Below are positions 28,647 to 50,123 of a stretch of 64,000 nt of DNA, one piece after another. The notes beneath the pieces were generated by a model that did not search any database, was not told the DNA's origin, and worked only from the letters and a program-made list of their open reading frames with translations. Made by a program: the position numbers and the translations under genes. The stretch spans positions 806,001 through 870,000 of the forward strand of contig NZ_CP092713.1 of assembly GCF_023983475.1 (NCBI RefSeq), in the 5' to 3' direction. The stretch is from Aliivibrio fischeri ATCC 7744 = JCM 18803 = DSM 507. Lineage in GTDB: Bacteria > Pseudomonadota > Gammaproteobacteria > Enterobacterales > Vibrionaceae. How positions within the stretch are numbered: the first letter of the stretch is position 1; every line of letters starts with the position of its first letter.

Positions 28647-30371
28647 ATGCTCTGCCAATTTAAACTTATCCCCGGTCGCCTACTGACCCAAAAAGACTTA
28701 CCGTATATACTCACTCCCAATGAATTACTGAATCACCTTAATCGTTTTACCGATCTGTCTTCATTAAAAGCGTCGTTACCTATTAATTTACAGCGTCATT
28801 CTGCAATCAGTGATTCACAAGGGGTATTTCAAACCGTCAGTCGTATTCGTCAATTGGTCGAACAGGGAGAGTGGGCAGCATTATCGTTAATGAACCAACA
28901 TAGAAGTATCGATACTCTGCATTTAGCTCAAGGAAGTGGTCTAAAAAAACGTATTGATAAGGTGGTTAACCCCTCGGTTACTCGTTCTCGTTTAAAAGTA
29001 AAACCGACCTTACTTCGTTCAAGTTCAAACGCCTCATCCATTACTCCTATTTCTGAAAAAAAGAATGATAATAAAATCGTTATCGAGTTTGCGGGGCAAT
29101 GGCCTAATAACGCCGCATCCATCTCGATTTCAAAATTAAAAAACATCAATGAAAAGACAGTAAAGCCGAAAAAAGACAGCAAAAACGGACACAGGAGTCT
29201 CGTCGAATTTACGTATTTGGATGATAGAAATCGATCACTGTATTTGACGTTACCAAGTATGAACTCAGCCAAAGAGATAAACCTGTTACTGAGCGAATCA
29301 TTATCTCCTGTAATCAAAGAAACAGAAATGGCAGAGTGGGATAATGTGTTAGTGCCTGTGGTGCCTTTTAAAGCAAAAGATAATAATTTTCTTCCACAAG
29401 AAGCTTCTCTTTACCCATCCGGTTATATTTATATAGTGTGGAATAATAACGTTTGGCGAGAACTAAAAATCACTAAAGATTACCAGTTTATGGATATCGA
29501 TTTAAAGAGTGAGAACAAAGCCAATTCTGGTGAAAAAGTCGCTAATCGATATGTAGATATTGCCTTAACACATCCAGAGTATGGCTGTTATTTTTCAGAT
29601 GAACCTTTTGATGTAAAACAAAATGGAAAAACGGTTTTTAGTGGCGTGCTTGATGTTTATGGGCAGGCAAGAGTTTTTGATTTAACGGAAGATAAAGTAA
29701 TTATTGAGTTGCCTCAAACTCCAACTCATTATTCAATCGAGTTAGAAACAACAGAAAGTTTATTTGGCTCAAAAAAGAGTGATATACGCCCCGTTTCTGG
29801 GCACGCATTACCACATATTTGGGTGCCTTATAAAATCGCAGGTCAACCTCAAACTCTTTTTGCATATCATAGTTTATCGCAACTGACTGATGATCAATTA
29901 TCTGAGTTAACCAGCAATCCAGAGACCATGGCACAGCGTATAGAAGGGCTTGATAGCTATACTGAATTACAACAATTTAGTGATGATGGAGCGTCTGTTA
30001 TTGCACTTCAATCGCCACTTTCAAGTCAGGCTTTACCAACTTCAATTGAAAAACAAAGCGAGCAAGGCATTGCAGTTTTATTTATATCATCACCACAAGA
30101 TGAGATTGTTTTTGCTTATTGCCAACATCCTACAGTCGATGAACCTGATGACTACTTTGAGTTATTTAATACAGAGCACAAATGGTCACAAAAGGTGTAT
30201 TTAGGTCAAGCCTTAGCACTGGATGACGGTTATCAATCTATTCGATTTACGGGGTGGCCAAGTGAGGTTAAAACCGTCACGTTAAAACGAGTAAACAAAG
30301 GGAATGAGTATCACCCTGAGCAACCGCCAATCATCATTTACCAAGACATTGCAATCAGTGAATTAGTGTAG
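28647..30371 (+). CDS. Module 1 protein A: uncharacterised, T6SS-linked
   Basis: A protein of about 574 aa with no signal peptide and no recognised domain. ATG 28647 is chosen because GGAG lies six bases upstream and because the paralogue at 41092 begins at the same place (MLCQFKLIPG against MHFNCKLIPS); the frame is open further upstream. Blocks shared with the paralogue are an N-terminal LPYILTPNELLNHL, a central VIEFAGQWPNNAASIS, ETEMAEWDNVLVPVVP, and HIWVPYKIAGQ near residue 420. The middle is predicted to be mostly beta strands. It is followed by the lipoprotein gene after 7 bp, and the three genes form a unit repeated at 41-50 kb. A role as an adaptor or structural partner for protein C is a guess. 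Confidence 0.75.
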   Translation: MLCQFKLIPGRLLTQKDLPYILTPNELLNHLNRFTDLSSLKASLPINLQRHSAISDSQGVFQTVSRIRQLVEQGEWAALSLMNQHRSIDTLHLAQGSGLKKRIDKVVNPSVTRSRLKVKPTLLRSSSNASSITPISEKKNDNKIVIEFAGQWPNNAASISISKLKNINEKTVKPKKDSKNGHRSLVEFTYLDDRNRSLYLTLPSMNSAKEINLLLSESLSPVIKETEMAEWDNVLVPVVPFKAKDNNFLPQEASLYPSGYIYIVWNNNVWRELKITKDYQFMDIDLKSENKANSGEKVANRYVDIALTHPEYGCYFSDEPFDVKQNGKTVFSGVLDVYGQARVFDLTEDKVIIELPQTPTHYSIELETTESLFGSKKSDIRPVSGHALPHIWVPYKIAGQPQTLFAYHSLSQLTDDQLSELTSNPETMAQRIEGLDSYTELQQFSDDGASVIALQSPLSSQALPTSIEKQSEQGIAVLFISSPQDEIVFAYCQHPTVDEPDDYFELFNTEHKWSQKVYLGQALALDDGYQSIRFTGWPSEVKTVTLKRVNKGNEYHPEQPPIIIYQDIAISELV

Positions 30372-30378
30372 GGACACC

Positions 30379-31596
30379 ATGAATTTAAAATACCTATGGA
30401 CAGCATTAGCTGCGCTTATTTTCCTAAACGGATGCAACCAAGACGACTCTTCAACGCCAAGGACAGCCGTCGAACCACCAAAAACTGACGTCGAATTACT
30501 TAACGAGCAAGAGTGGGATGATAACCGTGTTTATGTCACTAAAGATAACTACATCTTAACGAAAGAAGCCAATGGCACGATACCGGGAATAATGAAGCCC
30601 TGCTTTGTAGTGAACAGCGCTAAAGAGTGGCCAAGAGAAGATTTATCAAATGCGGATTCTTACGACTTACCGAGAGTGGATTTCAGGTGGAATAACGGGA
30701 AACACGATGCGTATTCCGTAATGACTGAAAAACAGATTTATGAAGCGAGAGATAAGATTTGGAGCATAAAAACAGATGGTACGGATTTACGGTTAGTTAC
30801 TGACTTTTTAGACGTTGTTCCGATGAATAAGCAGAATGAAGCCGTTCCAATACGAATGATGCGTCGGTCACCAAATAATCGTTATTTAGCTTGGAGTGAC
30901 AGCGTCAATAAAGTCATTTTTGATTTAAAAACCCAAGAGTCGATAGTTTTAGGCTCTGATCTTGGTCATTCTCAATTTCTCTGGGCGGAAGACAGTAGCT
31001 ATTTGTATTTTGAAGACAGAGCTAAATATTGGAAATACGATATTGTCTCAGGAAAAACTACCCAAATGGACGATGATTTTCATTTTTCAGAAGTGGGGGT
31101 GATATACGGTGGGAAGCGGTATGTAGTTTCTGATTATGGGATTGTTGTTTTTAACGAGAGTAATAACAAACGACTTTATTCAATAGGCTTATCTACAGCT
31201 GAAGAGGATAAATTAGCGGCTAAGAACATTTCACTTTCGTATGATCGAAAATATTTTTTGAAAAGCAGGTCAATCAGCCCTAATGGAAAGTATGCATGGG
31301 GTGAATCAGCACAATATCGTTATTTTATTAATTTAGAAACCAAAGAGGTTAAAAATGAGAAAATTGTTCGTTCAGAAGTAGGTGATTATCAATACTTTGA
31401 GCAGTTAGGGTTGAATGCTAATTATGTCAGAGATGGTGCTGGAGGTGTAATATTTCTGAAATTAAATGAAGATAAAACCGTCCCTAAGGATAAATGGATG
31501 AACTGGCCGCAAGTATGCTCAGGCCATTCAGCAACACTGTCATGGTTATACAACGGTTTTGCGAATAATGGCGCTTTTATCAAGGAGGATAAATGA
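30379..31596 (+). CDS. Module 1 protein B: lipoprotein with propeller-like repeats
   Basis: A 405-aa lipoprotein: a short signal sequence ends in the lipobox LNGC, with Asn at +2. The mature chain contains TolB/WD40-like strands: KIWSIKTDGTDLRLVTD, RSPNNRYLAWSD, LWAEDSSYLYFEDRAKYWKYD and SISPNGKYAWGES, which suggests a beta-propeller of several blades. It ends NGFANNGAFIKEDK. The stop overlaps the ATG of protein C by 4 bp. The paralogue at 42794 shares these blocks. A surface or periplasmic lipoprotein coupled to a giant protein beside a T6SS could be an immunity protein or a contact factor. TasL, a T6SS lipoprotein for target adhesion reported in Vibrio fischeri, is a possible relation that needs testing. 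Confidence 0.82.
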   Translation: MNLKYLWTALAALIFLNGCNQDDSSTPRTAVEPPKTDVELLNEQEWDDNRVYVTKDNYILTKEANGTIPGIMKPCFVVNSAKEWPREDLSNADSYDLPRVDFRWNNGKHDAYSVMTEKQIYEARDKIWSIKTDGTDLRLVTDFLDVVPMNKQNEAVPIRMMRRSPNNRYLAWSDSVNKVIFDLKTQESIVLGSDLGHSQFLWAEDSSYLYFEDRAKYWKYDIVSGKTTQMDDDFHFSEVGVIYGGKRYVVSDYGIVVFNESNNKRLYSIGLSTAEEDKLAAKNISLSYDRKYFLKSRSISPNGKYAWGESAQYRYFINLETKEVKNEKIVRSEVGDYQYFEQLGLNANYVRDGAGGVIFLKLNEDKTVPKDKWMNWPQVCSGHSATLSWLYNGFANNGAFIKEDK

Positions 31597-34500
31597 TGAG
31601 TAATAACAAAATGTTAGCCAAAGGAGTTTATTTGTTTTCAACACAATTTGGATTTAATTTTGATAGTAATAAAAAAAGAATATATAAAAATTGGCATTCA
31701 AATCCCAAAATTGTAACCCTTGGAAGTGATAGAAAGAATAATGGTGTAGATAACATTCGCCCTGTTCCACTTACCCCCTTAATAGCCAATATAAAAGAGT
31801 TAAGTGAACGAGTAGAAGAGCGAGAAACCAATGGCATTTGGGGAACAGATAAACATGGACTGATCCATGCACTTGATACTGGTGTACAAGCGATTGCTGA
31901 AAGTGGTGATTTTGAATACCTTCAGCATAAAAGTGTGGTCAACCATTTAGATGATGGCGAGTATTCATTGTGTTTTCCGCCGTTAGCCATTTTAAGTCGT
32001 TTGGCGATTAGTAAAACCTCGGCAATAGAGATAGCAAAAGAGTTATACCGTTATTCTTCTATGATAGACAAAGATAAAGACAATGAAGTGACATTTTCTT
32101 TAACTGAGATAGGGATAGAGCAACTAGCCAAGCCATTTGAGCCATCATCAAATGGGGCGTTATCTCAGGAACAGAAAGAGTATAACCAATGGCATGAAGA
32201 GATATCTAAAAAAGGAGAGTCTTTAAAAGGGTTTTTATTACCATCACAAGCGATTTGTAGTGTTGTTTTTTCAAGCGATGTGTATACAAATGCACGAGTT
32301 ACTATTTCTAGATTTATTCGAGAAGATAATCAAAGTATTTGGAAACCTATTGCGGAAGATATACCTGTTTTAGCACCTAAAAAGGGTGTTGTTACACTTC
32401 CAAGTGCACTTATCAATGTTAACCCTGAATCCTTCGAAGAAGGGTATTACAGTATTAAAGTAACTTTTGACCCTCGTAACTTTGAAAACCAAATAATTCC
32501 AGAGTACATCCAAAATAGTAATATCGACAAAATTAAATTTGGTTTCTTAGATGGCTACCAATACGAACTCCGAGAATACATACGTTTTGATAATTACATA
32601 CCATTAGGAAAAATGGCCATTGTGTGTGGGGATATGATCTCCCTTGAAGAATCTTTAATCTGCCAATTTCCACAATATCTTTCGCATCTTACTGCGCATT
32701 TAAAAGGAAAAGCAACTAATACAAAAGCCCTTGAAAGCCCTGCTTTAACTAGCCTCGCGGTATTAACCGGAGCTAACAAAGTAAGCATGATGCTTGGTAT
32801 GGATTTGTTGGCGGATGGCTTAACGCCACAACTAGATAATGGCCCAACAGCAATGGTAAATAATATTGCCAAGCTGTATTGGGAAGAAATAAAAAATAAG
32901 AATTTACCAACAGCAATGCAAGCCACGGGAGAAATTTTATTTGGTTTGCAATCAATGGGGGAAGGGCTTGGTAAATTAAAAGAGCTAACCGCATTACAAG
33001 CAGGTAGTGCTACTTATCGTGCTGAATTTGGTGCATCTGCATTATTTAAATCCACCATTTTTGATAAAGAGAAGTACGGTAAATTTACCGAATACCTCGC
33101 TAAAGCCAACCAAGAATTTAAAGATGGAAAATACAAAGCCGCAGTTGGACGATTATCAAAAACATGGTTGCAAGGTGCCGATTTGGCAGGGCGAGGGTTA
33201 GTTGCTGTTGACACATTAAATAATATTGCTGCGCTTTTTAATCACGGAAAAGAAATTGCTGAGCAAAAGAAAAAAGCAGAAAAAGCGCGTGGCAATATGG
33301 CTGAGGTTGCGAGTGAATATTTGAAACATATTCCAGTCTGGACGGAAACGCAATTAGAGATAAATAAAGAAAATAAACAGGCTTTTGAGCAATTAACAAT
33401 TAAAAATAAGACCTTGTTCAATGACGACTACGGCTCTGGGATTGAAGTGGTTTTTGAGTTTGATAAGAAAACCGCAGATACATCGATGGTTCGTCAAGGC
33501 ATTGCAGAAATTGTTTCTTTCTTAGAGAAACAACCTGATGTTCATATCGTTATTGAAGGCCACACCTGTCAGGTCGGCACCAATCAATATAATATGAACT
33601 TATCGCAGCAACGGGCACAAAATGTTGCTGATCTATTCCCTAAAACACTTCAAGAAAAAATAACGGTGATTGCTTTTGGTGAAACTCAGCCATTAGTAGA
33701 GGCCACAGGGCGAGAAGTTTCATCAGATAATCTTAAATTAAAAGTAAACCGTAGAGTAAAGATAAAAGCTTACTTAAAGGTTCTTGATATTGTGTATGCA
33801 CCAAGTAGAAGTGGAATGGGGGTGCTAGAACGTTCTCGTCTAATTACGCTAAATACAATGCAAAAAAAGGATGATGCAATATTAGCTGCCCAACTTGCGT
33901 TGTTAGAATCACTCGTAGGGGTTGCTTGTTTTATTCCTGTTATAGGGCCTGCAGCAAGAGGCATGTTATTAATAAAGGAAGGTTCTAATATTGTTCAATC
34001 TGGTTTAGGTTTCTTAGATGAAATGCTTTTTGATTATGCTTATGAAACCATTGTCAAAACAGAAGGGGCGAAAGACGATCTTGCTGATTTAGCCAAAATA
34101 CAAATGGAATTATTAAGTCAGTTAAGACAGTGGGACAGTAAGTTAGAAACCAAGCTCACGAGTTATGAGAGCTTAACTGCGTATTTATCTAAAGATGAAA
34201 CTAAAAATGAAATACTAAAGCGTTATCAATTACGAGCACTGGCTTTTAACGGATTGATGATGGTTTTGCTGTATGCTCATAGTGAAAACCAGAAGATGCA
34301 ATCAGGTAAAAATTTAAATTTAACGTTAGATAAATACGATATTAAGGGCTATATCGAAAAGTATCTGCAAAATGATTCATGGTCAGTCAATACGATTAAA
34401 AGTACTGATTTAGGGTTCGATTGGATCAATCAGTGCAAACAGAAGCAGAAGCAAGATATCCCCCTATATTATCAAACCTTACCTACACCGGTTCCTGCAT

Positions 34501-36329
34501 CCAATTATCTGCAATATCAAGCGCCACAAGATAAAGGAACAGTGAGCGGAAAGTTTAGTCGTGCATTTCCTGTTCAGGGATTATTGTATGAACTACCAAG
34601 TGAAAACAAAACGGCAATGAATTTATTTGAAGAATTTTCAACGAATTTTTCTCCTTTACAAGAAGGTATTGAGCTGGATGAGATTGCACTTCAACGAATT
34701 TTAGTCTCAGACCAAGATGGTAAAGAGTGGGATGAGTATTCAAAATGGAAGAAAGAAAATCAAAGAGTTAAGATTAATCGCTTATCACCATTCCATCGCT
34801 TAAAAATACAAGTTGTCTTAAATGATGAGAGTAAATCTGTTTTCCCATATGAAGTCGGTTATCAACGAGTTGATGGCGTAAATATAGATGGGCCAAAATT
34901 CAGTGTGTTATTTAAACCAATGACATTATCTGATTTTACCTATCAAGATGAGAAATTAAAGGCTGTATTTGGTCAAGAAAAAGCGTTAACTGCGATTGAA
35001 TTTGAGCCTTTCTATTATTTTGGTAGCCAACGTATTTATGGTTTGAAACCGATAGTAAGTAAACAGCGAGTTGACTCATTATATACATTGCATTGGCTTG
35101 GGCTTCATAAAGTAATAAAGATGAAAGAGAGCGCCTTTGAAGAATATGTATCTAGTGGTGGTTTTAGATATATGCGTTACGAACTGCAATTGCAAAAACC
35201 GAACAGTAAGCATCATCAAGCCATATTATTTGATGAGAATAATCATGATGAAATTCATATTGGTGTGCACAGCGAAAATAGCCATAAAGTCATACTGGAA
35301 GACAGCAGTAGTGGTTCGACACAAACCCTTAATTTTATTTCTGAAGGACGTTTATTAGAGATTGAAGAGTTTACTTATTCACAGACTGTTGGTGAAAGCG
35401 TTTCTATAAATGTCATTGATAAAGTACTTTATCAAGCGGTAGGTGTTGATTACAAAAACAAATGCTATTTAGCTAAACCCAAGAATGAAAAGCAGACAAT
35501 AAGTGGTTTTTCATGGGATAAAGCGGATGAATTAGAGACATTACATATATTGGTTTGCGGTGAGAGCCATAAAGACGAATATGAAACCTTAAAGGTGGAT
35601 TGGAAAAGAGTAGACGCCATGGTGCAATTACAAACAGCAGGTTATGTGTCAGAGGAAGAAAAAACATCGTACCATTATCACCAAGCGAGTAACCATACTG
35701 AAAATTCGTCCTCTTATACTGAAAGTTATTTGAATAAAAACGCAAATGTCAAAAAAGTAGGTGGGCCAATTTATCAATCAACACTCAATTATGTTGGGGA
35801 GATTTGTCATAATGGTGCTTGGAATCTTTCAATAGATAAAGAAAGTAAAGAGGCATTAACCGATAAACTTAGTACCTTTTTAAATCTGTCTATTCATGAA
35901 TTAAATAATAGCTTTTCTTCATTGGATAAGAAGAAAGCATATGCTGTTCATGTGATCAGCTTTAACCTTAAGTATATGACGCCAACAGGAATTAATGCGT
36001 CGGGGTTACGTCCATTTGGTGACATTGTACAAAGTAAGGATCATTTGTTTAATTTAAACGTAACTGAGCTTAAGCAGCTTAATACAGAATCTGGCGTGTC
36101 TTTAGATGGTAAAACATTAAAGTTAGCCATGCCGACATTGAATCATAGTCAGTTAAATGATCAAACCATGCCATGGATGAAACCTGGAGCTAAGGGTAAA
36201 CAGGGAGTCAGTGGAGATATTGCTAATGAGTGGGATGGGTTAGATGAAAAACAACGCATACTGCGAATAAAAAAATGGATAGAGAAACAACCGACCGCCA
36301 TTGAATTAAAGTCTAAGCAATTTTTGTAA
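31593..36329 (+). CDS. Module 1 protein C: giant protein with central OmpA-like domain
   Basis: A 1,578-aa protein without a signal peptide. The N-terminal 600 residues are unique to the pair (NGIWGTDKHGLI, VCGDMISLEESLICQFP). Residues about 608-729 form an OmpA-like domain (VVFEFDKK ... IVIEGHTCQVGTNQYNMNLSQQRAQNV ... FGETQPL ... NRRVKI), but the usual GHTD has Cys for the Asp that binds peptidoglycan. Shortly after, at 765-800, is a hydrophobic stretch rich in G, A and V (SLVGVACFIPVIGPAARGMLL). The C-terminal half has many beta strands and ends with TPTGINASGLRPFGD and WMKPGAKG. AAGGAGG precedes tandem ATGs at 31593. No enzyme motif is visible. It could be a T6SS cargo, a contact protein or a pore-former. 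Confidence 0.82.
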   Translation: MMSNNKMLAKGVYLFSTQFGFNFDSNKKRIYKNWHSNPKIVTLGSDRKNNGVDNIRPVPLTPLIANIKELSERVEERETNGIWGTDKHGLIHALDTGVQAIAESGDFEYLQHKSVVNHLDDGEYSLCFPPLAILSRLAISKTSAIEIAKELYRYSSMIDKDKDNEVTFSLTEIGIEQLAKPFEPSSNGALSQEQKEYNQWHEEISKKGESLKGFLLPSQAICSVVFSSDVYTNARVTISRFIREDNQSIWKPIAEDIPVLAPKKGVVTLPSALINVNPESFEEGYYSIKVTFDPRNFENQIIPEYIQNSNIDKIKFGFLDGYQYELREYIRFDNYIPLGKMAIVCGDMISLEESLICQFPQYLSHLTAHLKGKATNTKALESPALTSLAVLTGANKVSMMLGMDLLADGLTPQLDNGPTAMVNNIAKLYWEEIKNKNLPTAMQATGEILFGLQSMGEGLGKLKELTALQAGSATYRAEFGASALFKSTIFDKEKYGKFTEYLAKANQEFKDGKYKAAVGRLSKTWLQGADLAGRGLVAVDTLNNIAALFNHGKEIAEQKKKAEKARGNMAEVASEYLKHIPVWTETQLEINKENKQAFEQLTIKNKTLFNDDYGSGIEVVFEFDKKTADTSMVRQGIAEIVSFLEKQPDVHIVIEGHTCQVGTNQYNMNLSQQRAQNVADLFPKTLQEKITVIAFGETQPLVEATGREVSSDNLKLKVNRRVKIKAYLKVLDIVYAPSRSGMGVLERSRLITLNTMQKKDDAILAAQLALLESLVGVACFIPVIGPAARGMLLIKEGSNIVQSGLGFLDEMLFDYAYETIVKTEGAKDDLADLAKIQMELLSQLRQWDSKLETKLTSYESLTAYLSKDETKNEILKRYQLRALAFNGLMMVLLYAHSENQKMQSGKNLNLTLDKYDIKGYIEKYLQNDSWSVNTIKSTDLGFDWINQCKQKQKQDIPLYYQTLPTPVPASNYLQYQAPQDKGTVSGKFSRAFPVQGLLYELPSENKTAMNLFEEFSTNFSPLQEGIELDEIALQRILVSDQDGKEWDEYSKWKKENQRVKINRLSPFHRLKIQVVLNDESKSVFPYEVGYQRVDGVNIDGPKFSVLFKPMTLSDFTYQDEKLKAVFGQEKALTAIEFEPFYYFGSQRIYGLKPIVSKQRVDSLYTLHWLGLHKVIKMKESAFEEYVSSGGFRYMRYELQLQKPNSKHHQAILFDENNHDEIHIGVHSENSHKVILEDSSSGSTQTLNFISEGRLLEIEEFTYSQTVGESVSINVIDKVLYQAVGVDYKNKCYLAKPKNEKQTISGFSWDKADELETLHILVCGESHKDEYETLKVDWKRVDAMVQLQTAGYVSEEEKTSYHYHQASNHTENSSSYTESYLNKNANVKKVGGPIYQSTLNYVGEICHNGAWNLSIDKESKEALTDKLSTFLNLSIHELNNSFSSLDKKKAYAVHVISFNLKYMTPTGINASGLRPFGDIVQSKDHLFNLNVTELKQLNTESGVSLDGKTLKLAMPTLNHSQLNDQTMPWMKPGAKGKQGVSGDIANEWDGLDEKQRILRIKKWIEKQPTAIELKSKQFL

Positions 36330-36526: not shown

Positions 36527-36601
<75 letters not shown>

Positions 36602-36787: not shown

Positions 36788-36834
36788 TCATTTAACTGTA
36801 CTAGATAATTAATTACCTAGTTAGCTTAACCAAA

Positions 36835-39800
36835 TTATTGTGGGTTAAGGCCTAGTTGCTCTAGTACCAGTTTAAAGTTAGCACGACGTTCTTTAACGTT
36901 ATGAACTTCACCAGTAGAACATACTAAATCAGGACAACCACGGTTTACGATACCAGATACATCATCGATAAACTCAGTACCTTTCATTCCACCATCAACA
37001 TACTTCTTAAGCTCGTTGTGGTAGTTCCAGTTACCGTATTGACCAGACTCATCAGGGTACGCTTGTACTGATGTAACCCAGTAGAATAGACCAGCAATCC
37101 ACTTGATTTCTTTGTTCTCTTCAGAGCTACAAATTAAGCCTGGGTTTGAACAGAAATCCAGTTCAGCGTATAGCGGGTTCTCTGGTGGCGCTTCAACAAC
37201 AACACCATCAATTGTTTTACCAATTGTCTCAGGGTCAACGTGTGAACGGCCTAAGTAGTGGTTAAGTGTACCGAAGTTTTGACGACCTGTAGTTTGAATT
37301 ACACCACGGCCCCACCAGCCACAACCTTGAACGCTTTCTTGGCTGCTGCCATCCCAAATAAAGCTACCTGCTTTTTGATCAACGTAAGTTTTACATGTAT
37401 CACGTTCCCATACTTGTTTAGAGGTATCTACAGCCGTTGGTACATCATTACAGTGACCATTGTTTGTCCAACGACCCACACTTCCGTTTACAAGTAAACC
37501 ACGCTCTTCAAGAACAGCATCAGGTGCAGCAAATACAGGAGCTGGAGCACCGTACCATTTCGCATGGGTTAGGGCACTTACTTCCATTTTGTCATCACGA
37601 GGACAAGAGTAAGCGTGATCTAAACCTGAAATAGGGTTAACACCGTAATCTGCGTATTTTTGACCAAGTTGACCACAGCTTGCAGACATTGGGTAATCAG
37701 CAGGTGCACCGTATTTGATTTCAGACCAGTTGTTCTCATCACACGCATTGTAACGAATGGTTTCTTGCATACTTTGAGCTAGGAACGCAGCAATCGCTAC
37801 TTTTGCATATTTGATGTTTGTAGCATCATCTACATTTTCATCTAATAACCAGAACTTGTTACCTGCAACACCAATGTTATGCATTGCATTCAAGCCTTCC
37901 ATGAAGTCAGCCCACTTGTAAACCGTAGACGGAATCCATTGTGATTGAGGCGTTTCATACAAGAATGCAGTGTTGTTCATTGCATCTTCAGCATTTGCTA
38001 ATTGGTTATTTAGTTCATCAATAACCGTTAGTTTGCCGTTTTCTGTTGTTTTACCAACGTAGTACAGTGGCATTTTAGCATCTTGGTAGCGTTCAATTTT
38101 AGCTGTTAGTTCTGCCGTGTTTTTATCAAACAGAATGGCGAACACGTTGCTGAATGCCGCTTTACGGATTTGTGGCTTGCTAGTCTTGTCACCCATGAAG
38201 TAAGCAGAAGCTTGATCTGTTGGAATGTTGTTTAGCATTACCGGTGTTTTCACGTAATCAGAAACTTGCTTAACGTATTCCAAAGCATTGTGCCATTGGT
38301 CACTTGATAACGCTTCAGTCGTGTTTGATTTTGTGAACGCAATAAAGTCAGCTTTTGTTGCTAGTTCAGCTTTATAAAGCTCTAATTTATTCAGTAAATC
38401 CGCAGAGAAACTAGACGCCTCATCCCAAACAGATTGTCTACCTGAGTGCGTATCAAAAGCAAAGTCACCAATGCTTAGAGACCAACCGTAACTTGCTTCT
38501 GGCGCAAGAGTAGAGATGATTAGGTGATGAGCGTTTGCCCAACCTTTTAAATCATTACTTAGAGCGTTGATGTCATCAATATCAATCTTATTGCCAGTGA
38601 TATCCATCGCTTGTGTTAGTGCTTCTTTAACAGAAATACTGCTTGAAGATAACGCATTATCACGAGTCGCTTTATCAAGAACATCAGAGTTGATGATAAT
38701 AGATGCTGAACCCGCTTGTGCAGCTGCATTAATGATAGATACAAACGTGCTTGTTAGTTTATCGAAATCAGTTAAATCAGCGCTGTTACTTGCTTGGATC
38801 GTTAATGTCGTTGGTGCTGAAGTAGCAGGGCTTGCAACAACTAATGTATTTGGCCAGCCAGCTACTTCTAGACGTACTGGATCCATTGGGTTTGGTAGAG
38901 AAAGAAGCGGAGCCGTGCCCGGTTCAGTACCATCACAATTTAGGTGAAGAGCCCATGAGTCATCACTACCTGGAATGGTTTTAGTCCAGTAGATTGCTGA
39001 GTAAGCGATGTTATCATGAACCATAATGTCACCACCTGTTGCGTGATCACCACGAGTCCAATCAGGATAAACATTAAAGTCTTTACATAAGTCACCTGGA
39101 GTTACAGGCGGCTCAACCGGTGGCTCTACCACATCTTCTTCAACGGTGATTCTTACTGTTGCTGTAGAAGAAAGATCTTGTGCATCAGTAGCGATAGCAT
39201 TCAGAGTTACATTACCAGCTTGAGTTGGCTGCCAGTCACACGCAAATGTGTCTGTATTCGCTGCGTCAAATGAACAGATTTCTTTGTTGTTTGCTTTAAC
39301 AATCAGTGTCGCTAAATCGTTATCAGCATCTGTTGCATTAACAGAAATAGAAAGGCTCTCAGCAACGTTCATTGTTGAACCATTAGCTGGAGTAACAAAT
39401 TTAACTACAGGTGCAACGAAATCTTCAGTTACTTCTGCTTTTACAGTAACTGATACTGACTTTTGCTCGATCTTTTGGTTATTTTTATCGAAAACAAATA
39501 CGTTAATCGTCGCATTACCTTCTTCACTTGGCGTCCAAGTTTGAGAGTATTGAGTGTTGTTTTGGTTTACTGTTTTTTCAGCAAGCTTGGTATTGTTCGC
39601 CCAAAATTCAATTTTAGCAGCTAAGTTACCATCAACATGTGCATTGATTGAGATAGCTTCGTTAGCGGTTAACACTTGTCCAGCAGTAGGAGCAAGGATC
39701 GACAACTCAGTCACTTCTGGTTCAGGATTTACAGGTTCGTCAGAACATTCTGTTAGCGTCCAGAACCAAGAACTTGCGCTTGGCGTTTCCCAAACACCTG

Positions 39801-41091: not shown

Positions 41092-42789
41092 ATGCATTTT
41101 AACTGCAAGCTTATTCCCAGCTCTTCTTTATCACACAAAGAGCTTGAATATATCCTTACACCTGATGAATTCGTTAGGTTGCTTTCGCGCGGAAAAAATT
41201 CACAGAACATCATCAATCAATTACCTGTACAACTACGCCAATCTTTGTCTATCTCCGCAAGTAAGAGCGTACAATCACTGCTTTTTTCTTTAAACCAAAA
41301 GCTAACAAAAGCTGAGTGGATCGCTGTATCTACAACGGTAAGAAAAACGGGGTTAAGTGATACCCAACTTGCACAATATCCACAACTGAAGAAGCAAATA
41401 GATAGAGTTGAAACAACTCAACCTGCTAAGTTTGTTAAAGCAAATTTTAAACCTGTTACTGATGATGTGCCTTTGGTTCGTAATCTGTCATTTACACCCG
41501 TTAACCCATCGCCAGAACACAAGATTTCTATTGAGTTTGTAGGTCAGTGGCCAAATAATGCGGCGTCACTTTTATTGGCTAAATCAGGTGAGCAAAAAGA
41601 GAAAATAGCGAAACCAAGAGCCGATATTCATGCTTCACATCGTAGTATTGCGACATTTAAAGATTTAGAGCCAGAACCGAGAAACCTTTATCTCACTATT
41701 CCAATGAATGGCACTCCACAGCCATTAAAGCTTCTGCTTGCAGAAAATATTCAGCCTGTTGATAAAGAGACTGAAATGGATGAGTGGGATACTGTATTGG
41801 TGCCTGTTGTTCCAATGAAGAGATTAAGTGAAGAGTATTCTTTACATCAAATTGGTTATTTTTATGTAATTTGGAATGGAAAAGTATGGCGAGAAATTAC
41901 GATTGATTCCAATGGTTACTTTTGTGATCTTGATATACAGCATGAAAGACAAGAACCTCTGCCAACACGACATGTGAATATTAATGCATCTGAATTTTTC
42001 CCTGAAGCCAATATGTCCTTTGAAAGATTTGAATTATATCAAGAAGGCCAAAAAGTATTTTCAGGTGAGTTGGATGTATGTGAACAATCAAGAGTATTTA
42101 ATTTAGTTGCAGAAGAAGTTGAATTGAAATTTGTGGATTTTGAGCACGATGAAATTCTTCTTACTACTTTTGAAAGTCCGATAAAAAACAATGCTTCTAA
42201 CGAACGCCAAGCAATGAGTTATCCAATGCCTCATGTATGGTTGCCTTATAAATTGTTAGGTGAAGTTCAGGCTGATTGTTATATGTATTACAGCCAAGCT
42301 TCATTATCCGATTCAGAAATAAGTTCTCTAGAAGCTAATTATGTCAATATCGCAGTGTCTATTGATGAAATGTCGGTTTACAGTCAGCAACAAGCGTTTG
42401 AAGGAGAACGTATATATGCACTTCCTTTAGCAAAAAGTAGTTCATTTGGGTCTCATATTATTAATGAGCAGAATGATAGCAACATTGCTGCAATTACTGT
42501 TATGCCACCAAAAAATCAAATTACATTACGCTACCGAATTTGCAGAACAACAGACCAACCTGATGATTTCATGATGTTAAGAAATGAAGAGGAAGAATGG
42601 TCACAGAAAGTTTATTTCAGACAAGCAAAAGCTGATGATGAAGGTTTTTTAAATCTCCCATTCTTTGGTTGGCCAAAAGAAGTTGAAGAGGTGGATATTA
42701 TTCGCGGCGCAAGTGCTGATTTAGGGACAACAGAATACGAATTATCCGTTTTGAAAACAAAAATTAAAATTTCAGAATTAATAGGCTAG
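41092..42789 (+). CDS. Module 2 protein A: uncharacterised, T6SS-linked
   Basis: A protein of about 565 aa, the paralogue of the one at 28647. ATG 41092 follows GGAG by six bases; the open frame extends eight codons further upstream. Shared blocks in order: LEYILTPDEFVRLL, ISIEFVGQWPNNAASLL, ETEMDEWDTVLVPVVPM, FYVIWNGKVWREI, MPHVWLPYKLLGE and WSQKVYFRQAKADDEGFLNL. There is no signal peptide. Divergence from the first copy is large outside these blocks, so the duplication is old or the copies were acquired separately. The lipoprotein gene follows after 4 bp. Confidence 0.75.
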   Translation: MHFNCKLIPSSSLSHKELEYILTPDEFVRLLSRGKNSQNIINQLPVQLRQSLSISASKSVQSLLFSLNQKLTKAEWIAVSTTVRKTGLSDTQLAQYPQLKKQIDRVETTQPAKFVKANFKPVTDDVPLVRNLSFTPVNPSPEHKISIEFVGQWPNNAASLLLAKSGEQKEKIAKPRADIHASHRSIATFKDLEPEPRNLYLTIPMNGTPQPLKLLLAENIQPVDKETEMDEWDTVLVPVVPMKRLSEEYSLHQIGYFYVIWNGKVWREITIDSNGYFCDLDIQHERQEPLPTRHVNINASEFFPEANMSFERFELYQEGQKVFSGELDVCEQSRVFNLVAEEVELKFVDFEHDEILLTTFESPIKNNASNERQAMSYPMPHVWLPYKLLGEVQADCYMYYSQASLSDSEISSLEANYVNIAVSIDEMSVYSQQQAFEGERIYALPLAKSSSFGSHIINEQNDSNIAAITVMPPKNQITLRYRICRTTDQPDDFMMLRNEEEEWSQKVYFRQAKADDEGFLNLPFFGWPKEVEEVDIIRGASADLGTTEYELSVLKTKIKISELIG

Positions 42790-42793
42790 AACA

Positions 42794-43882
42794 ATGAAAA
42801 AAATACTATTACTCGCACTATTTAGCATCACTTTAATGGGGTGTAATGACCCTGAAAGCGCCGCAGCAGAAGCGGCTCAATTAAGGGCTGAACAGCATCC
42901 AGAACGTACTTATGTGGGTGAGCATAACTATTACACCATGGAAAGCAGTGGTGACATTCAATTCACGACAAAAAAAGATTTAAAAGTAATGTATCAAGAT
43001 TTTCCTCGTTACTTTGTTGAAAAAGCAAAAGAGTGGCCAAAAGAAGATCTTAATGACGCCAGCTCATACGATTTACCGCGTTTTCAATTTGCATGGGCGA
43101 ACTCAAGCTCAGAAGATGAATATGAGAGTGGGCTTAAAATTTGGAGCATGAAAACTGATGGCACTGATTTGCGTTTGGTGACAGATGCAACCATTGGTTT
43201 TGCTGCTATTCGTACTTTAACTCGTTCACCAAATAATCGTTACGTCGCTTGGGCGGGAACTGGTGGTCAGAAAGGTGTGTATGATTTAAAAACGGGTAAG
43301 GTTTCGAATATGCATAAATTCACTTCGCCACTTGATATGCTTTGGTCGGAAGACAGTCGCTATTTGTATTTTGATGATGCTATAAATAGTTATGCTCGTT
43401 GGGATTCAGAAACTGGTGAAATTAGTGAGATTGATTTTCAATTTAGTAGCTTTGCTAAAATTACAGATGATACCTTGGTTAGTCTAAATGTTTATGGGGT
43501 ATATAAACTTAATTTAATATCAAATGAAGGCGTTTTGTTAAAGTCTTCAAAATCATTACCTAGAGAACAAAGAAAATTAGACGTAAGATCGATTAGTCCA
43601 ACTGGTCGCTACGCTTGGGGATCTAATCCTTCTTATGGTTTCTTTTTTGATATAGAAAAAGGAACAGTTAAGCAAATGACTACAGATTATACGCCTGCTC
43701 AAATTTTAGGGAAAGACGCACATTTTAGTGCATTAAATAGCTTTGCTAAAGTTAGAGTTGTTGATCGTGTTGGAGATCGTGTGTGGTCATGGCGCGCATT
43801 CTATTACGGTGCGTTATCAGGAGATGCAATTTTATATAATGGTTTAGCTAATGATGGTTTGTGGTTCAGGGAGAACAAATGA
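42794..43882 (+). CDS. Module 2 protein B: lipoprotein with propeller-like repeats
   Basis: A 362-aa lipoprotein with lipobox LMGC and Asn at +2. It shares with the copy at 30379 the strings AKEWPKEDLNDASSYDLPR, LKIWSMKTDGTDLRLVTD, RSPNNRYVAWAG, LWSEDSRYLYFDDA and SISPTGRYAWGS, which alternate as in a TolB/WD40-type propeller. It ends YNGLANDGLWFRENK, like its paralogue. It overlaps the start of protein C. Unlike C, it is intact here. Confidence 0.82.
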   Translation: MKKILLLALFSITLMGCNDPESAAAEAAQLRAEQHPERTYVGEHNYYTMESSGDIQFTTKKDLKVMYQDFPRYFVEKAKEWPKEDLNDASSYDLPRFQFAWANSSSEDEYESGLKIWSMKTDGTDLRLVTDATIGFAAIRTLTRSPNNRYVAWAGTGGQKGVYDLKTGKVSNMHKFTSPLDMLWSEDSRYLYFDDAINSYARWDSETGEISEIDFQFSSFAKITDDTLVSLNVYGVYKLNLISNEGVLLKSSKSLPREQRKLDVRSISPTGRYAWGSNPSYGFFFDIEKGTVKQMTTDYTPAQILGKDAHFSALNSFAKVRVVDRVGDRVWSWRAFYYGALSGDAILYNGLANDGLWFRENK

Positions 43883-44673
43883 TGTCTGCTTTAACTACTT
43901 ATGATCATGGAATATACCTACTTGGGGTTTATTTTGATAAAACAGAAGATGAACAAGGTAACGAGTCATATAGCGCTTGGCATCAATCATCTGATGTAAC
44001 CGAGGCTGATTTACGTAATGTTCGCCCAATTTCTTTTACGCCTGTTTTGGTAGATGACGCTAAAAAGCCAGTTCTATGGGGCACGAATAAAGACGGTTTA
44101 TTATGTCAGCTGGGTTATTTTGATGAGAATACGGTACCTGAAACTGTAGCAAAAAAACAAACTTTTTTACGTCATAAGCAGCCATTAACTGTTAGTGAAT
44201 TAAATTTAGATAAACCATATTCACTAATGTTTCCGCCATTAAATGTGATTGGACAACTGGCTGAAACACACTCCAGCGTTAAAGCGTTAAATGATTCACT
44301 AAAAGATATTTATTCCAATAAATTAAAATTAAAGAATAAAAAGCCGATTGAATTTACTATCAATAAAATCAAAGTTAGTCAGTTAGCAGAGCCCTATAAA
44401 GGGCTCGATAAACCACTGACAGATGAGCAGAATGATTACAATGCTTGGTATAACAAAATTATAGCGAGTGAAGTAACAGAAATTCAAGGCATCATTACTC
44501 CAGTTTTTCACTCGCTTGGGGTGGTGTTCAGCAGTGATTTGTATGTGGGGGCAGAGATTTCTCTTATTAAAGTGAAACCTAAACAAGACAATTCAGGTGA
44601 GTCAGAGGATGTATTGGCTACGAGTTTTGTTACTAAACCTGATCCAAGTGATGATAAAACTGTCTCGTCCTAA
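43879..44673 (+). pseudogene. Module 2 protein C, N-terminal fragment (IS-interrupted)
   Basis: The first 261 native residues of the second giant protein, then VSS and a stop contributed by the IS end. Tandem ATGs at 43879 and 43882 overlap the lipoprotein stop and follow GGGAG. It matches the start of module 1 C (GIYLLGVYFDK; VLWGTNKDGLL; YSLMFPPLNVIGQLA). Native coding runs to 44660. Joining 44660 to 45974, which removes the IS and one AAC repeat, restores a 4,932-nt frame (1,643 aa) through KTNNPEDYKKITPS. Confidence 0.88.
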
Positions 44674-44700
44674 AATACGTTGACGATTTTTAATTGAAAG

Positions 44701-45534
44701 CTAAGTGCGTACGCACTTGGCTTTTTTGTGTACTTGATTTGGTGTACTCATTCCCAAGCTTAAATGTGGCCGCATTTCATTATAAATAAAAATAGATTCT
44801 TCAACTAAATGCCTTAACTCCTCTAAATCTTTACAGTCATACAAAAGAAACTCTTGTTTAAGTATCCCATTTATTCGCTCTGCTAATGCATTTTGATAGC
44901 AATCATAACCATCCGTCATTGATGGCTTAATATCATTTTTATTCAATTTTTCCTGATAAACCTTTGAACAATACTGTAATCCTCGGTCTGAATGATGAAT
45001 CGTACTCCTTTGATATTGACGGCTATCTATCGCCATATCAAGAGCTTTGACTACATCAGTAGCTTTCATTTCATCACTTAATTCATATCCCATTATCTTT
45101 CGACTATAAGCATCTGTTACTAAAGATAAATAATGAATACCTTTTTGTGATTGAACGTAAGTGATATCACTAACAAAAACCTCTTCAGATGCTTGAGGTG
45201 TTACTTCTTTAAGTAAATTAGGATGTTTTTTCATCCAATGCTTACTATAGGTAGTTTTTGTATAACTTCGTTTAGGTTTTACTAATAAGCACTCATTTCT
45301 TAAATAGGAAAAAAAGTTATCTCTGCCTAACTTTATGCCATGAGTGATGAATTTGGGCTTAAGTAAAAAATATAATTTTTTACCTCCAATACGAGGCATA
45401 TATCGACGAATTTCTTGCACCATATTTTTAACCGGTGAAAGTTCAACGGCACGTTTCAGAGCTCTACGTTCTTGTTGGTATATACATTGTCTTGTAATGC
45501 CAAGTAGCTGACTAGCTCGCTCTAAGCTGATCAT
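44701..45534 (-). CDS. IS3-family transposase OrfB (DDE catalytic subunit), copy 2
   Basis: Identical in sequence to the 277-aa OrfB of copy 1, with the DDE residues intact (SDITY, HSDRG, AERINGILK). The start overlaps the orfA stop by 4 bp. The stop lies in the 16-bp palindrome AAGTGCGTACGCACTT, here near the left end of the element. Confidence 0.94.
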   Translation of the reverse strand: MISLERASQLLGITRQCIYQQERRALKRAVELSPVKNMVQEIRRYMPRIGGKKLYFLLKPKFITHGIKLGRDNFFSYLRNECLLVKPKRSYTKTTYSKHWMKKHPNLLKEVTPQASEEVFVSDITYVQSQKGIHYLSLVTDAYSRKIMGYELSDEMKATDVVKALDMAIDSRQYQRSTIHHSDRGLQYCSKVYQEKLNKNDIKPSMTDGYDCYQNALAERINGILKQEFLLYDCKDLEELRHLVEESIFIYNEMRPHLSLGMSTPNQVHKKAKCVRT

Positions 45535-45929
45535 TTTCTGCTTTTGAAGACTTCTTGCTCCTTGGCAATATACTTTTTTCTAAGGCCTGCACCATGTTCT
45601 GCGTCCATGATATTCACTACTTCATTAAGTAATAAATTACGCATTCTTTCATCATCAAGCTCTCGCTCTAAACGTTTAATTTTTTGTGCAGGCGATTCTT
45701 TCGCTTTCGGGGATTTAGGCATAATAATCTTAGGTGATTGAGACCAGTCCATCTTACCGTGTTTTCTTAACCAAGTAAGTACGGTAGATCGACCTTGAAT
45801 GCCATAAATGTTTTGAGCTTGCTTATAGGTCATATCGCCTTTTTCTATAGCGGCAACAAGCTGCAATTTAAAGCCTAATGAATAATCGCGTTGAGTTCGC
45901 TTATTCTTTGTTTTTTCTTGATTTGTCAT
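45531..45929 (-). CDS. IS3-family transposase OrfA, copy 2
   Basis: Identical to the 132-aa OrfA of copy 1: N-terminal helix-turn-helix and C-terminal leucine-zipper-like helix. Its promoter would lie between 45930 and the right end of the element, pointing towards the interior. Confidence 0.92.
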   Translation of the reverse strand: MTNQEKTKNKRTQRDYSLGFKLQLVAAIEKGDMTYKQAQNIYGIQGRSTVLTWLRKHGKMDWSQSPKIIMPKSPKAKESPAQKIKRLERELDDERMRNLLLNEVVNIMDAEHGAGLRKKYIAKEQEVFKSRK

Positions 45930-45970
45930 ATAAAAGTCCTAAATGTGTAAACACATTTCAGGACGAGACA

Positions 45971-48900
45971 AACAAATAACCCAGAAGATTATAAAAAAAT
46001 AACACCTAGTGTCGTATTTAATTTTGATCCTACACTAATTGATGATGGTTATTTTCTGCTTCGCACGCGTTTTTGGGTTGAAGAATATTTAGAACGACAG
46101 AAAGCAATTTTAGATGAAGGAATAGACGCTATTTTTCCTGATTCAGTAAAGCAAGGGCAACTAAAATTTGAAGCTAGTATTGAGCATCCTGACAGCAAAA
46201 CGGTACAAGACGTCTATACTTATGAACTGCATGAAAATGTCACTTTTAAACCAATAAGCGGTTTTGGTAAATTGGCGATGGTATGCGGTGATTTAATCTC
46301 GCTTGAAGAGTGTTTAATTTATCAATATCCAAAGGCACTACCTAGCTATTCTGATTTTATGACACAACAAGGAAACCCCGTTGCGTTAAAAGGCACTGGT
46401 GTCGCCACGCTTGGTGTTGCATCCGCAGTGCAAAAGACAGCGCAATCTTACGCTCAAGGTTTTGCGACAAAAGGCATTGGTGTATTTGGTGATTTATCTA
46501 GCCAACAAATTGCAACCAGTGTGGCAAAAAATATTTGGGGTAAATTAACCGTTGAGGGTGTTTTACCTGAGCCGCTTACTGCAGGAGCGAGTTTCTTATT
46601 TGGGTTGCAATCGGTCAAAGAGGCGCGTGATGCGTTTACAAAAGCGGTTAAGGTAACTGAAAGAGTACAACGATTTAATTTAACTGCTCCACAAACTTTA
46701 GAAAGGACGGTGCGTAAAGTTTTTTCTAATAAGACGTTTATGCAGAACGCGCTAAAAGAAATTAAAGAAAACTTTCAAGAGCACGGGGCATCCGTTAGTA
46801 CTCGAAACCTCGCTGCAAGTTGGTTTGAAGGAAGTGCTTATACAAAATTGGCTAAAGGCTTACCTATTATAGACACTATTGGCAGTATGTATGATTTTTA
46901 TCAACTAGTAGATAAACAAGGTAAGTTGGAGAAACAGTCGGCCAAAGAACAAGATAACTTTGATAGTGCAGCTACAGACTATTTGCAAAAAATTGTGATG
47001 GTAAAAGCAGAGGCTGATTGGGCCCAACAACTTCTTGATGCAACATCGATTCTGAATAATAAAGGCAAGGAGCAAATAGCTCGTATTGTGTCAAAAAATT
47101 CGCAAGTAATTATTCATATCAATTTTAAGTTCAATTCGTGGGAACTACCGAATACAGGTACGACATTACGAAGTGATATTGATATGGTTTGTGAAAGAAT
47201 TGCTGAATTATTAAAAGCACATCCAGATTATCGAATTCAAATTGAGGGTCATGCAGGACGAATAGGCAGTAATAAGGCAAATAACCTCGTTGCATTTAAT
47301 CGTGCTGATGAAATTAAAAACGCGATAATAATTAAAGCCGATGATAAAACATTATCTGAACGTATTATTACTTTGTCACATGGCAACACTCAACCTATGA
47401 GTGCTGACAATGCCAAAGTAGATATGAGTGAAACAGGGGATGACTCAGCATTAGCTATTGATAGACGTGTTGAAATCAGTTTATTGCCACCTCTTTATTC
47501 GTTAGCTTTGCCGCCGAGTCGGACTGGTATGATTGATTTAGAAAAAATTCGTCAAGCCAAACAAGCTTTTGATTTAGGATTAGATAATAATCAAAAAGAG
47601 CAAGTATCAGCGGTATTTAATTCTTTAATGGGTGTAGCAATGTTAACACCTATTGCTCCAGTTGCAGCTGGGGTTCTATTGATAAAAGAAGGATCTAGTA
47701 TTGCTGATAGCGGATTAAGCTTTTTAGATTCAATGCTAACCGAAGGGGCTTACAAGGATTTTAAAGCTAAATATAAGAACATTAATGAGTTAAATCAGCT
47801 AGGTAAGATTCACATTGAGGTATTGCAACTGTATCGCGGCTTGCAAGAAGACATTGTAAGTAAAAGATATACTGATAAAAATAAAATAGTTGAATTTTTA
47901 AAGGCACAAAAAACATCTCGTGAGTTACAAAAACGCTTCTTGCTTCGAGCATTAGCATTAAATGGTTTAATTGAATTACTTGCCAGAATTTCATTAAGTA
48001 GCAGTTCAAATAGTGACTATAAAAAAGAACTTACAAGCGATCGAGTTCAAGACTATATAGAGACGTATATTCTTAATGACAATTGGGAAGCTCCTTTATC
48101 TTCTTATAACACCATGGCTCAGAATTGGTTGAACCAAGTGAGAAATGATAACGTGAGTAAGTCATTGTCTGGTGCTAATTATTTTTATGGGCAACAAGTG
48201 AATGAATATTCTTACCATTCAGAATATTCACGAACAAAACATCTGGCTAAGCGAGCTAAAATTCAAGGTAAGTTTACGACTGGATTCCCAGTACAGACCA
48301 GTTTGTATATGGATGATAAAGAGAATGGTTTTGTGGATTTTGCTAAGTTGTTTGACAATAAAGCTCAAGACGTGAAATCTGACGATATTGGTTTTAGTCG
48401 TTTATTGGTGCTTAACGATCGAGATGATGATAAATCATGGATGCCTTATTCAGAGTGGAAAGAAGAAGGTAAAACAAACCGTATCACACCATTCACTCGT
48501 GTTAAGTTACAAGTAGTATTAACCAAAGACGCTTCAGAAGATGCGAAGAAATTCTTTAAAGCAACATTAAGTTATGGTTGTGATCGTGGCTGGCTTGATG
48601 TTAATGGCCCTCAATATCAAGTTTTGTTATCAGCAAAAGAAGTGTCTGATTTAACTGTGTGTGGGGCTTCAGATAATGAGCTGATTTCATATTACACACA
48701 ACAATTAGGTGATAACTATGTTGCAGATAAAGAAGGAACACAAACGTTAACTGCTGTTGAGTTTGAACCCACTTATTGGTTCGGTGAGTATGAAATTCCC
48801 GGTCTTAAGCCTTTGTTTTCTGGTTATTCGCAGTGGGAAAGCTTTGATTCATGGAAAAAAGACGATAAATATAAAGCACTGTCATATTTCTTTAAGCTTA

Positions 48901-50123
48901 ATAATAATTTATTGATACTCGATACCTCAATTGTAATACCTAGTTCAAAAGGTATTGAGATGCAAACTATCGGTTCGATGGGAGAAACGCTTTCTGAAAT
49001 CAAGCAAATGAAAAATATTGCTTCACACATGAAGTATGGCATTGATGATAATAATACCTATGGGCTTCAATGTCATAGTGATGGGAGTGTTGATACATCA
49101 ACTAAACCGTTATATCTCTTTGATGGATTAGGTAATCAAAGTGCGGTAATTAATGAAGCTGATTTGCTCGTTGAAAGCTTTGTTAAAGCGAATGAAAGTA
49201 GTAAAGGTGCTGGTAAAAAGCCATATATAGAAGGGCATGTCACCCCGCTTGCTGCACTAAATATAGGAAATAAATTTGAGTGGTTTGATAAGCAAAAACC
49301 AATAAATTCGCAACAATTTAATTGGGGGAAAGAACAATCAGCATCGATTTATGTGGCCTTATTAGCAGATAAAGATAATCGTGAAGATTATAAGAGTATT
49401 GGTTTTAATCTTGATAAAATCACTATGCAGCTAAAGTTAAGTATTGAGGAACAGGATTCAATTATTGGAAAGGCTGACTCAAAGGGAAAAGGGCCAAGTT
49501 ATTTTAGTTCTGTTTTCCATGTTATGGACATTAATTATGAGCTTGAAAATATAGAGAAATATTCGAAAGGCAATACCTATAAAGATATAGACTCTAATTA
49601 TGTTGAATTTGATGCTCAAACTGAAGAGAAGCAATCCTTTGTAAATTTTGCTTCTCAAGTGCTTGAAAGAGTCAAAGGTGCACCACAATCAATGCTGCAT
49701 GTAGGGACGCGAAGTAGAAAAGTTTATATCATGAAATTCGATTTAGACTATATATCCCCAACGGGTAAAAAGGTAAAAGGACTAAGACCGTTTGGACCAA
49801 TACTCGATGACGACACTGGTGAAATTTATTCTTCTGAATTACGTCTTTTTGGCTTATATCAAGAAGGTATTGATAAGGTTGAAAGCAAATATTTATCAGG
49901 TTCTCCATTAGCGATAACATTGCCAGAAAGTAAGAGTTTTTATGAGGGGAATTTACCTTGGACTCAAGTAGGAAATAAATTAGATAAGGTCAATATATCG
50001 GCTCAAACAAAATGGGAATCTTTGCAGAAAAAAGGTAAAGAAGAACAGAAAAAATGGTTGAAAGGTTGGATAAAAGATAAAACTGAAACTCGATCTGCGC
50101 CATCTGAACAAGGTATAAGCTGA
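45971..50123 (+). pseudogene. Module 2 protein C, C-terminal fragment (IS-interrupted)
   Basis: The remaining 1,382 residues of the second giant protein. The native frame resumes at 45974; the first in-frame start-like codon is near 46272, so a truncated product is possible but not expected. Blocks shared with module 1 C: VCGDLISLEECLIYQYP; an OmpA-like domain (restored residues about 636-770) with INFKFNSWELP, IQIEGHAGRIGSN, GNTQPM and DRRVEI; a hydrophobic run FNSLMGVAMLTPIAPVAAGVLLI (about 809-850); LTAVEFEPTYWFGEYEIPGLKPL; and SPTGKKVKGLRPFGP near the end. As in copy 1, the Asp of GHTD is missing (GHAG). There is no stop or frameshift other than the IS, so the insertion is the only lesion. 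Confidence 0.85.

Follow-up and report, generated by a model that had tools for sequence, protein, structure and literature searches.

The window analysed here is a stretch of 64,000 nucleotides of Aliivibrio fischeri ATCC 7744 (G000:C2:806001-870000, in a genome of 4.5 Mb on two contigs), and it contains two three-gene clusters of common order, A1-B1-C1 (28647-36329) and A2-B2-C2 (41092-50123), each on one strand. Judged by literature passages, by gene order and by homology to secreted A and C proteins, each cluster is very probably a binary effector module of the VP1388-VP1389-VP1390 type known from the type VI secretion system 1 (T6SS1) of Vibrio, with A as predicted co-effector, B as predicted immunity protein and C as predicted periplasmic toxin. 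The module pair is real and of a known kind, and one of the two copies is broken.

Both clusters had been noticed in a first-pass annotation made from the letters of the sequence, and their coordinates, their order and their like junctions were borne out, but not the reading of C2 as one open reading frame (ORF). A1 and A2 are 36% identical over 587 alignment columns (E 6e-112), B1 and B2 are 34% identical (E 1e-50), and C1 is 28% identical to each of the two pieces of C2 (E 5e-26 and 2e-87), which is far beyond chance. A and B are separated by 7 bases in module 1 and by 4 bases in module 2, the stop of B overlaps the start of C as ATGA in both (31593-31596 and 43879-43882), and the internal methionine starts at 28647 and 41092 agree with the start of most homologues. 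The closest database relatives of A2 (97%) and C1 (95%) are proteins of A. fischeri.

Relationship to the VP1388-VP1389-VP1390 module

The binary effector module VP1388-1390 of V. parahaemolyticus T6SS1 goes back to Dar, Jana, Bosis and Salomon (2022, EMBO Rep 23:e53981), whose work is taken here from passages of reviews. According to these passages, VP1388 interacts with VP1390, both interact with VgrG1, and neither is secreted without the other; VP1390 is toxic or lytic from the periplasm (PMC12724144, PMC12826047, PMC10433429), and VP1389 is the immunity protein (PMC12826047). The excerpt of PMC12826047 assigns the OmpA_C domain to VP1388, contrary to excerpts of other sources and to the sequences compared here, which locate it in VP1390 and C.

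The first-pass view that none of the three proteins matches a nameable family holds for A and B, which have no match above cut-off in Pfam or NCBIfam, but not for C, which has OmpA above the Pfam cut-off (NCBIfam gives sub-cutoff matches only, nearly all of the OmpA type), nor for the set as such, which is known in the literature. Its functional proposal of a T6SS link with A as adaptor, C as toxin and B as lipoprotein immunity fits the module and the secretomes with A and C homologues as far as the published passages go.

Co-effector, immunity gene and OmpA_C giant follow each other on one strand in both window modules, and the order A-B-C was found in 40 of the 47 fetched loci (with C in more than one ORF in L079 and L082). 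The seven exceptions are L083 and L094, where contig ends lie inside C, L099, L103 and L104, where A stands with another cargo, L110, where A is not one ORF, and L111, with a fragment of A only. C can be aligned as an OmpA_C giant to secreted VP1390 homologues, C1 being intact and C2 being in two pieces, and the lipoboxes of B1 and B2 (Table 1) predict from sequence only that B reaches the periplasmic side.

Two loci with secreted homologues allow a direct comparison. Passages of PMC5666596 describe a T6SS1 cluster of V. proteolyticus with vpr01s_06_00050 (MIX I, 555 amino acids, aa), the immunity gene vpr01s_06_00060 and vpr01s_06_00070 ('VP1390 homolog, OmpA_C-like', 1,539 aa), in which _00050 and _00070 belong to the T6SS1-dependent secretome and _00050/_00060 are given as an effector/immunity pair. 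In the fetched locus of the same strain, L090, A (560 aa, with an upstream TTG as start) is followed by a B of 480 aa and by a C with exactly 1,539 aa. Residues 9-294 of A2 share 52% identity with the MIX-I protein of V. proteolyticus, and it is by this homology only that MIX-I is recognized in A. The locus differs from the window modules in being of class II, with another C-terminal half of A, a B without lipobox and a C that is alignable at 24% identity over 770 columns; class I A proteins have Val where class II has Arg (VPVVP vs VPVRP). V. coralliilyticus BAA-450, a coral pathogen, secretes the MIX co-effector VIC_RS16360 and the VP1390-like VIC_RS16350 according to a passage of PMC11371242, and we take these to be A and C of L074, with the tags assigned by gene order. 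This class I A aligns nearly over its full length with A2 (42%, A2 residues 7-573) and A1 (37%), as does its C with C1 (32%). The fetched stretch holds one module, unlike the window, and a second B gene lies behind C. In V. alginolyticus, Va01560, the immunity partner of a VP1388 homologue, gave better growth of prey without the pair.

The modules of the window share with VP1388-VP1389-VP1390 the MIX-I-type front of A and, for module 2, the position at the VasH-ClpV-Hcp-VgrG end of its T6SS cluster. They differ in that two diverged copies occur in one genome, one of them outside the tRNA-Gly boundary of the T6SS2 island, that the giant gene of copy 2 is interrupted, and that secretion and toxicity are only predicted. 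Secretion of A and C, their mutual dependence, VgrG binding, periplasmic toxicity and immunity are reported for homologues, and A1/A2, B1/B2 and C1 may by analogy act in the same way. In that case the giant C would travel on the T6SS spike with A as its carrier, would probably harm the envelope of a rival bacterium by acting in the periplasm, and would probably be counteracted in the producer by the membrane-anchored B.

Excerpts of earlier work on A. fischeri mention further MIX effectors (PMC6267618, 2018) and 'OmpA proteins' among the genes around T6SS2 (PMC9515649, 2022). We found no passage assigning the VP1388-1390 module to A. fischeri in the literature searched, which consisted mostly of non-subscription papers.

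The length of C1 given in the first-pass annotation (1,578 aa) is correct, but the 1,643 aa given for C2 must have resulted from reading across an insertion sequence (IS). The reading frame of C2 runs into an IS3-type element and resumes behind it; the element has 10-bp terminal inverted repeats (TGTCTCGTCC/GGACGAGACA) and an rve-domain transposase, and a second copy lies at window 17717-19026. C2 is presumably inactive, and its pieces were kept separate in all comparisons and not joined. Module 2 also looks damaged in G005 (L045 3694-9717), where B2 and C2 are each split into two frames, and in G003 (L053 4703-5785), where A2 is without its front; sequencing error is possible in both cases.

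In C1, the modelled OmpA_C fold (residues about 605-727) gave good matches that include the TagL domain of a T6SS, and the C-terminal part is predicted to form two beta-sandwich regions (about 1023-1269 and 1272-1514), for which the fold search returned no trustworthy match.

Split inheritance of A and proposed exchange of cassettes

In an alignment of 24 A proteins, all share one conserved front, and the backs fall into three or more kinds. We compared distance matrices over 30 complete modules (Mantel test, A1 numbering from the 601-aa ORF), a procedure that treats related loci as independent and thereby counts against our reading: the distances of A residues 25-255 were uncorrelated with those of C (rho -0.05, p 0.71) and of B (-0.07, p 0.74) and closely followed those of VasH of the same locus (0.86, p 0.001, 18 loci), and the distances of A residues 501-601 were correlated with those of C (0.87) and B (0.82), with p 0.001 for each, and not with those of VasH (-0.15). 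B and C are correlated with each other (0.86), and neither tracks VasH (-0.14 and -0.17). The change begins in the residue window 241-270, coupling to C is intermediate in residues 265-480 (0.2-0.6) and reaches its maximum after 480. The pattern persisted when near-identical C proteins were removed (24 modules; A front vs C -0.00; A end vs C 0.85) and when class I was taken by itself (14 modules; A front vs C 0.12, p 0.19; A end vs C 0.78, p 0.001).

That the fast-evolving C-terminal domains of VP1388 co-evolve with the toxin and that the MIX signal stays with the machinery was proposed in 2023 from a comparison of two V. parahaemolyticus strains (passage of PMC10734457). The present analysis adds a many-locus test and a breakpoint in A; no report of such a breakpoint turned up in a cursory literature survey. 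A would be a coupling: its front (MIX) half descends with the secretion apparatus, its back half descends with B and C, and this two-part inheritance would allow toxin and antidote to be exchanged as a unit at the joint.

Natural chimeras illustrate such changes. In G010, the A protein shares 91-97% identity with A1 in the windows that reach as far as residue 248, and again 91-97% with A2 from residue 505 onwards. At the DNA level, this locus matches the left flank of module 1 up to window 29365, continues with a module-2-type remainder, and resumes the match to the right flank at 36367, 38 bases past the stop of C1. The same change from A1 to A2 occurs in P0015 (A. fischeri), and in P0037 and P0043 an A2 front is joined to a class II back. 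In G006, which is without module 1, the DNA goes from window 28320 to 36300 with approximately 100 bases between. The Aliivibrio chimeras show that A tail, B and C are replaced as a block at one chromosomal site, and we infer that recombination takes place at the joint in A.

At least two B genes were found in 13 of the 47 loci, and, since L065 is counted because of its two modules, 12 loci with an extra B are left. In G010 and G003 the extra B lies beside a stub of the start of C (128 or 87 aa), which is what one would expect after an incoming B-C pair has ousted the former toxin but not its antidote. From their sequence context, the extra B copies, some of them by C stubs, look like orphan immunity genes. 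B1 is also the most strain-variable protein of module 1, with 71%, 66% and 88% identity in G005, G013 and G002, as compared to 95, 94 and 96% for A1 and 91, 88 and 94% for C1. In G021 (L054 12274-12894) the gene that separates A from an additional B belongs to the Imm11 immunity family, which again points to an immunity island.

A can also be followed by other genes. In G003 (L061 1-8809), G006 (L060 2717-9307 and L104), A. sifiae NBRC 105001 (L103) and V. zhanjiangensis (L099), it precedes a protein of 1,179-1,209 aa and one to three proteins of one further family, of which the G006 member has LRR domains. The large protein, with no Pfam match above cut-off in G006, is hydrophobic around residues 920-970, and the protein search returned five relatives of it. 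The A backs in L060 and L061 belong to class III, and by sequence this class together with the approximately 1,200-aa protein and the LRR family looks like a second, rarer cargo type for the same co-effector front.

We give an even chance to the following wider view. The MIX half of A belongs to the secretion machine and the back half to the cargo, with a conserved joint of about 15 residues connecting them. Recombination at this joint would exchange complete toxin-immunity cassettes among strains and among T6SSs, be they VP1390-type toxins and their lipoprotein or membrane-anchored antidotes or the unrelated second cargo of 1,200 aa and its LRR proteins, and T6SS2-negative symbionts would retain cassettes that suit another T6SS.

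A-like domains were also met outside of the modules. In G018 (L062 1703-12662), an Rhs protein (DUF6531, RHS repeats, 1,641 aa) ends in an A-like domain; next come a protein of 429 aa, hydrophobic in an N-terminal stretch, and a C-like protein that is split into two ORFs, with OmpA in the first. Near T6SS genes, two VasX_N proteins, one of 1,126 aa behind VgrG (L063 2159-7632) and one of 1,160 aa behind a DUF4123 adaptor (L064 374-4700), have an N-terminal stretch that can be aligned to the A front (E 1.7e-9 and 9e-6, respectively). This hints at a relationship between the MIX-I front and the N-terminal region of VasX, although in VasX-type effectors the A-like stretch is part of a large protein, whereas A is a separate protein without Pfam match.

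Association with secretion systems and alternative explanations

VasH, ClpV, Hcp or VgrG was found in the fetched stretch of 27 of the 47 loci. Of 14 Aliivibrio genomes, 9 have a TssM match and 8 of these contain A, which is absent from all 5 genomes that have no such match (Fisher p 0.003, uncorrected for kinship). T6SS2-type VasH (at least 85%) and TssM (at least 79%) occur in 4 of the 8 module-bearing Aliivibrio genomes, and the A2-type front half is present in all four T6SS2-positive and in none of the four T6SS2-negative ones (p 0.029). The A1-type front half is found both with and without T6SS2, and another T6SS may serve module 1, the simplest candidate being T6SS1 together with an auxiliary VgrG. 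The first-pass annotation placed both clusters directly before the T6SS genes, which is right for module 2 but not for module 1, which is separated from module 2 and the T6SS by a tRNA-Gly gene and a 1,119-aa gene with CBM and Ig-like domains. Its own refuting case, that homologues would usually lie far from any T6SS, did not materialize, although the picture is mixed.

Several observations weigh against the binary effector assignment or the T6SS link. No T6SS marker was found in the sequence fetched for the remaining 20 of the 47 loci, some of which are truncated at a contig end and others of which resemble genuine orphans. A is missing from G004 in spite of its TssM matches, a C relic full of stops is present in G008, which lacks a TssM match, and the other four of the eight module-bearing Aliivibrio genomes are without T6SS2-type VasH and TssM. 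Class II B proteins, for example that of L090, have no lipobox, and the fold searches identified neither an enzymatic nor a pore-forming part in C. Moreover, Asp and Arg of the OmpA motif GHTD...R are the contacts of the diaminopimelate group, and this Asp is replaced in all 39 C proteins (Cys in 26, Gly in 13; Arg and Asn are invariant), which makes ordinary peptidoglycan binding by C uncertain. It makes it uncertain only, since in a control set of other OmpA proteins (20 loci examined, 19 spanning the site) Asp is present in 10 and Ser in 9 of 19.

It is rather unlikely that the modules of this strain are mainly relics, with module 2 broken by the IS and module 1 an orphan kept for protection by B1 against related attackers. 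The interruption of C2 and the persistence of modules in T6SS2-negative genomes would agree with this, and module 2 is damaged in three of the four two-module genomes (G000 by the IS, G005 and G003) as compared to none of three with the module 2 type only (G006, G010 and G012), numbers that are too small for significance. However, A1, B1 and C1 are intact in G000, C1 is 88-94% identical in three relatives, and the front of A stays matched to VasH, which would be needless for a pure immunity role. We consider it very unlikely that A is itself the toxin, a polymorphic MIX effector with a toxic C-terminal half, that B is its immunity protein and that C is an accessory secreted protein. The C-terminal half of A is indeed polymorphic, and an earlier study scored Va01565 (a VP1388 homologue) and Va01560 as effector/immunity pair and excluded VP1390 for want of an immunity protein. 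In the review passages on Dar et al. 2022, however, VP1388 is a co-effector that is nontoxic alone and VP1390 is the toxin, and the co-variation of A tail, B and C is what is expected for one three-part set, even though co-variation alone does not identify which part is toxic.

The least credible alternative, to which we give hardly any weight, is a contact or recognition system like that of TasL, in which B and C would serve adhesion or target choice and not killing. The better-modelled end of C1, with its two predicted beta-sandwich regions, might suit such a role, and a TasL-like giant is encoded in 11 of the 47 module loci. TasL of V. fischeri, which belongs to the same genus and to the T6SS2 cluster and is a lipoprotein like B, has more than 380 kDa in strain ES401 and mediates cell contact according to a passage of PMC9040878. 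The first-pass option of B as TasL was rejected, since B has 362-405 aa and the TasL position in G000 is held by a separate 2,953-aa gene with lipobox, located outside the window in the same T6SS2 cluster (G000:C2:883369-892230). A giant lipoprotein beside tssA, tssM and tasR is not what the modules contain, and neither A nor C has a lipobox at its start.

Layout of the window

Module 1 is flanked by a Na+/H+ antiporter gene on one side and by tRNA-Gly on the other, module 2 by the CBM/Ig-like gene and by the VasH-ClpV-Hcp-VgrG block (Table 1). Module 2 is followed by a 166-aa ORF, VasH and ClpV on the opposite strand, and then Hcp and VgrG. A passage of PMC9515649 gives tRNA-Gly as the boundary of the T6SS2 island in V. 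fischeri.

Table 1. Coordinates of the two modules and adjacent features in the window
Feature	Position	Strand	Remarks
A1, MIX-I-type co-effector, class I C-half (VP1388-like)	28647..30371	+	574 aa from internal Met; 601 aa as ORF from TTG 28566; no Pfam/NCBIfam family
A1 joint, residues 251-265	29316..29360	+	border between apparatus-tracking front and cassette-tracking back; DNA homology of G010 chimera to module 1 stops at 29365
B1, lipoprotein, predicted immunity protein (VP1389-like)	30379..31596	+	405 aa; lipobox LNGC; 44% identity to B beside V. coralliilyticus homologue
C1, intact giant OmpA_C protein, predicted periplasmic toxin (VP1390-like)	31593..36329	+	1,578 aa; residues 13-1570 32% identical to V. 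coralliilyticus homologue
OmpA_C domain of C1, residues about 605-727	33405..33773	+	
tRNA-Gly (tcc)	36527..36601	+	
A2, MIX-I-type co-effector, class I C-half	41092..42789	+	565 aa from internal Met
B2, lipoprotein, predicted immunity protein	42794..43882	+	362 aa; lipobox LMGC
C2, first piece, up to IS element	43879..44660	+	
IS3-family insertion inside C2	44661..45970	-	1,310 bp; transposase ORFs 44701-45534 and 45531-45929; 3-bp target duplication AAC
C2, remainder behind IS	45971..50123	+	listed ORF 46272-50123, 1,283 aa, with OmpA_C
VasH-type sigma-54 activator (GAF, AAA, Fis)	50691..52301	-	
ClpV-type AAA ATPase of T6SS2 cluster	52288..54966	-	
Hcp	55419..55937	+	
VgrG	56007..58085	+	

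The 1,119-aa protein (window 36835-40194, minus strand) adjoins tRNA-Gly, contains Ig-like (Big_7) and CBM_5_12 domains and is likely a secreted chitin-binding protein; it is 99% identical in G002, a strain without T6SS2. Behind VgrG, at window 58063-61799, there is no module, and the genes found there encode proteins of 167 aa and 441 aa, a DUF2169 protein and a protein of 313 aa. In Photobacterium (L088, L089 and L105), a module directly follows VgrG and relatives of these four genes.

The split inheritance of A provides a rule by which cargo can be predicted from sequence, with the back half of A pointing to toxin and antidote and the front half to the apparatus. With the present assignment, the genes at the side of the T6SS2 island of A. 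fischeri become a known kind of toxin-delivery module, and strain incompatibility in the squid symbiont becomes testable gene by gene.

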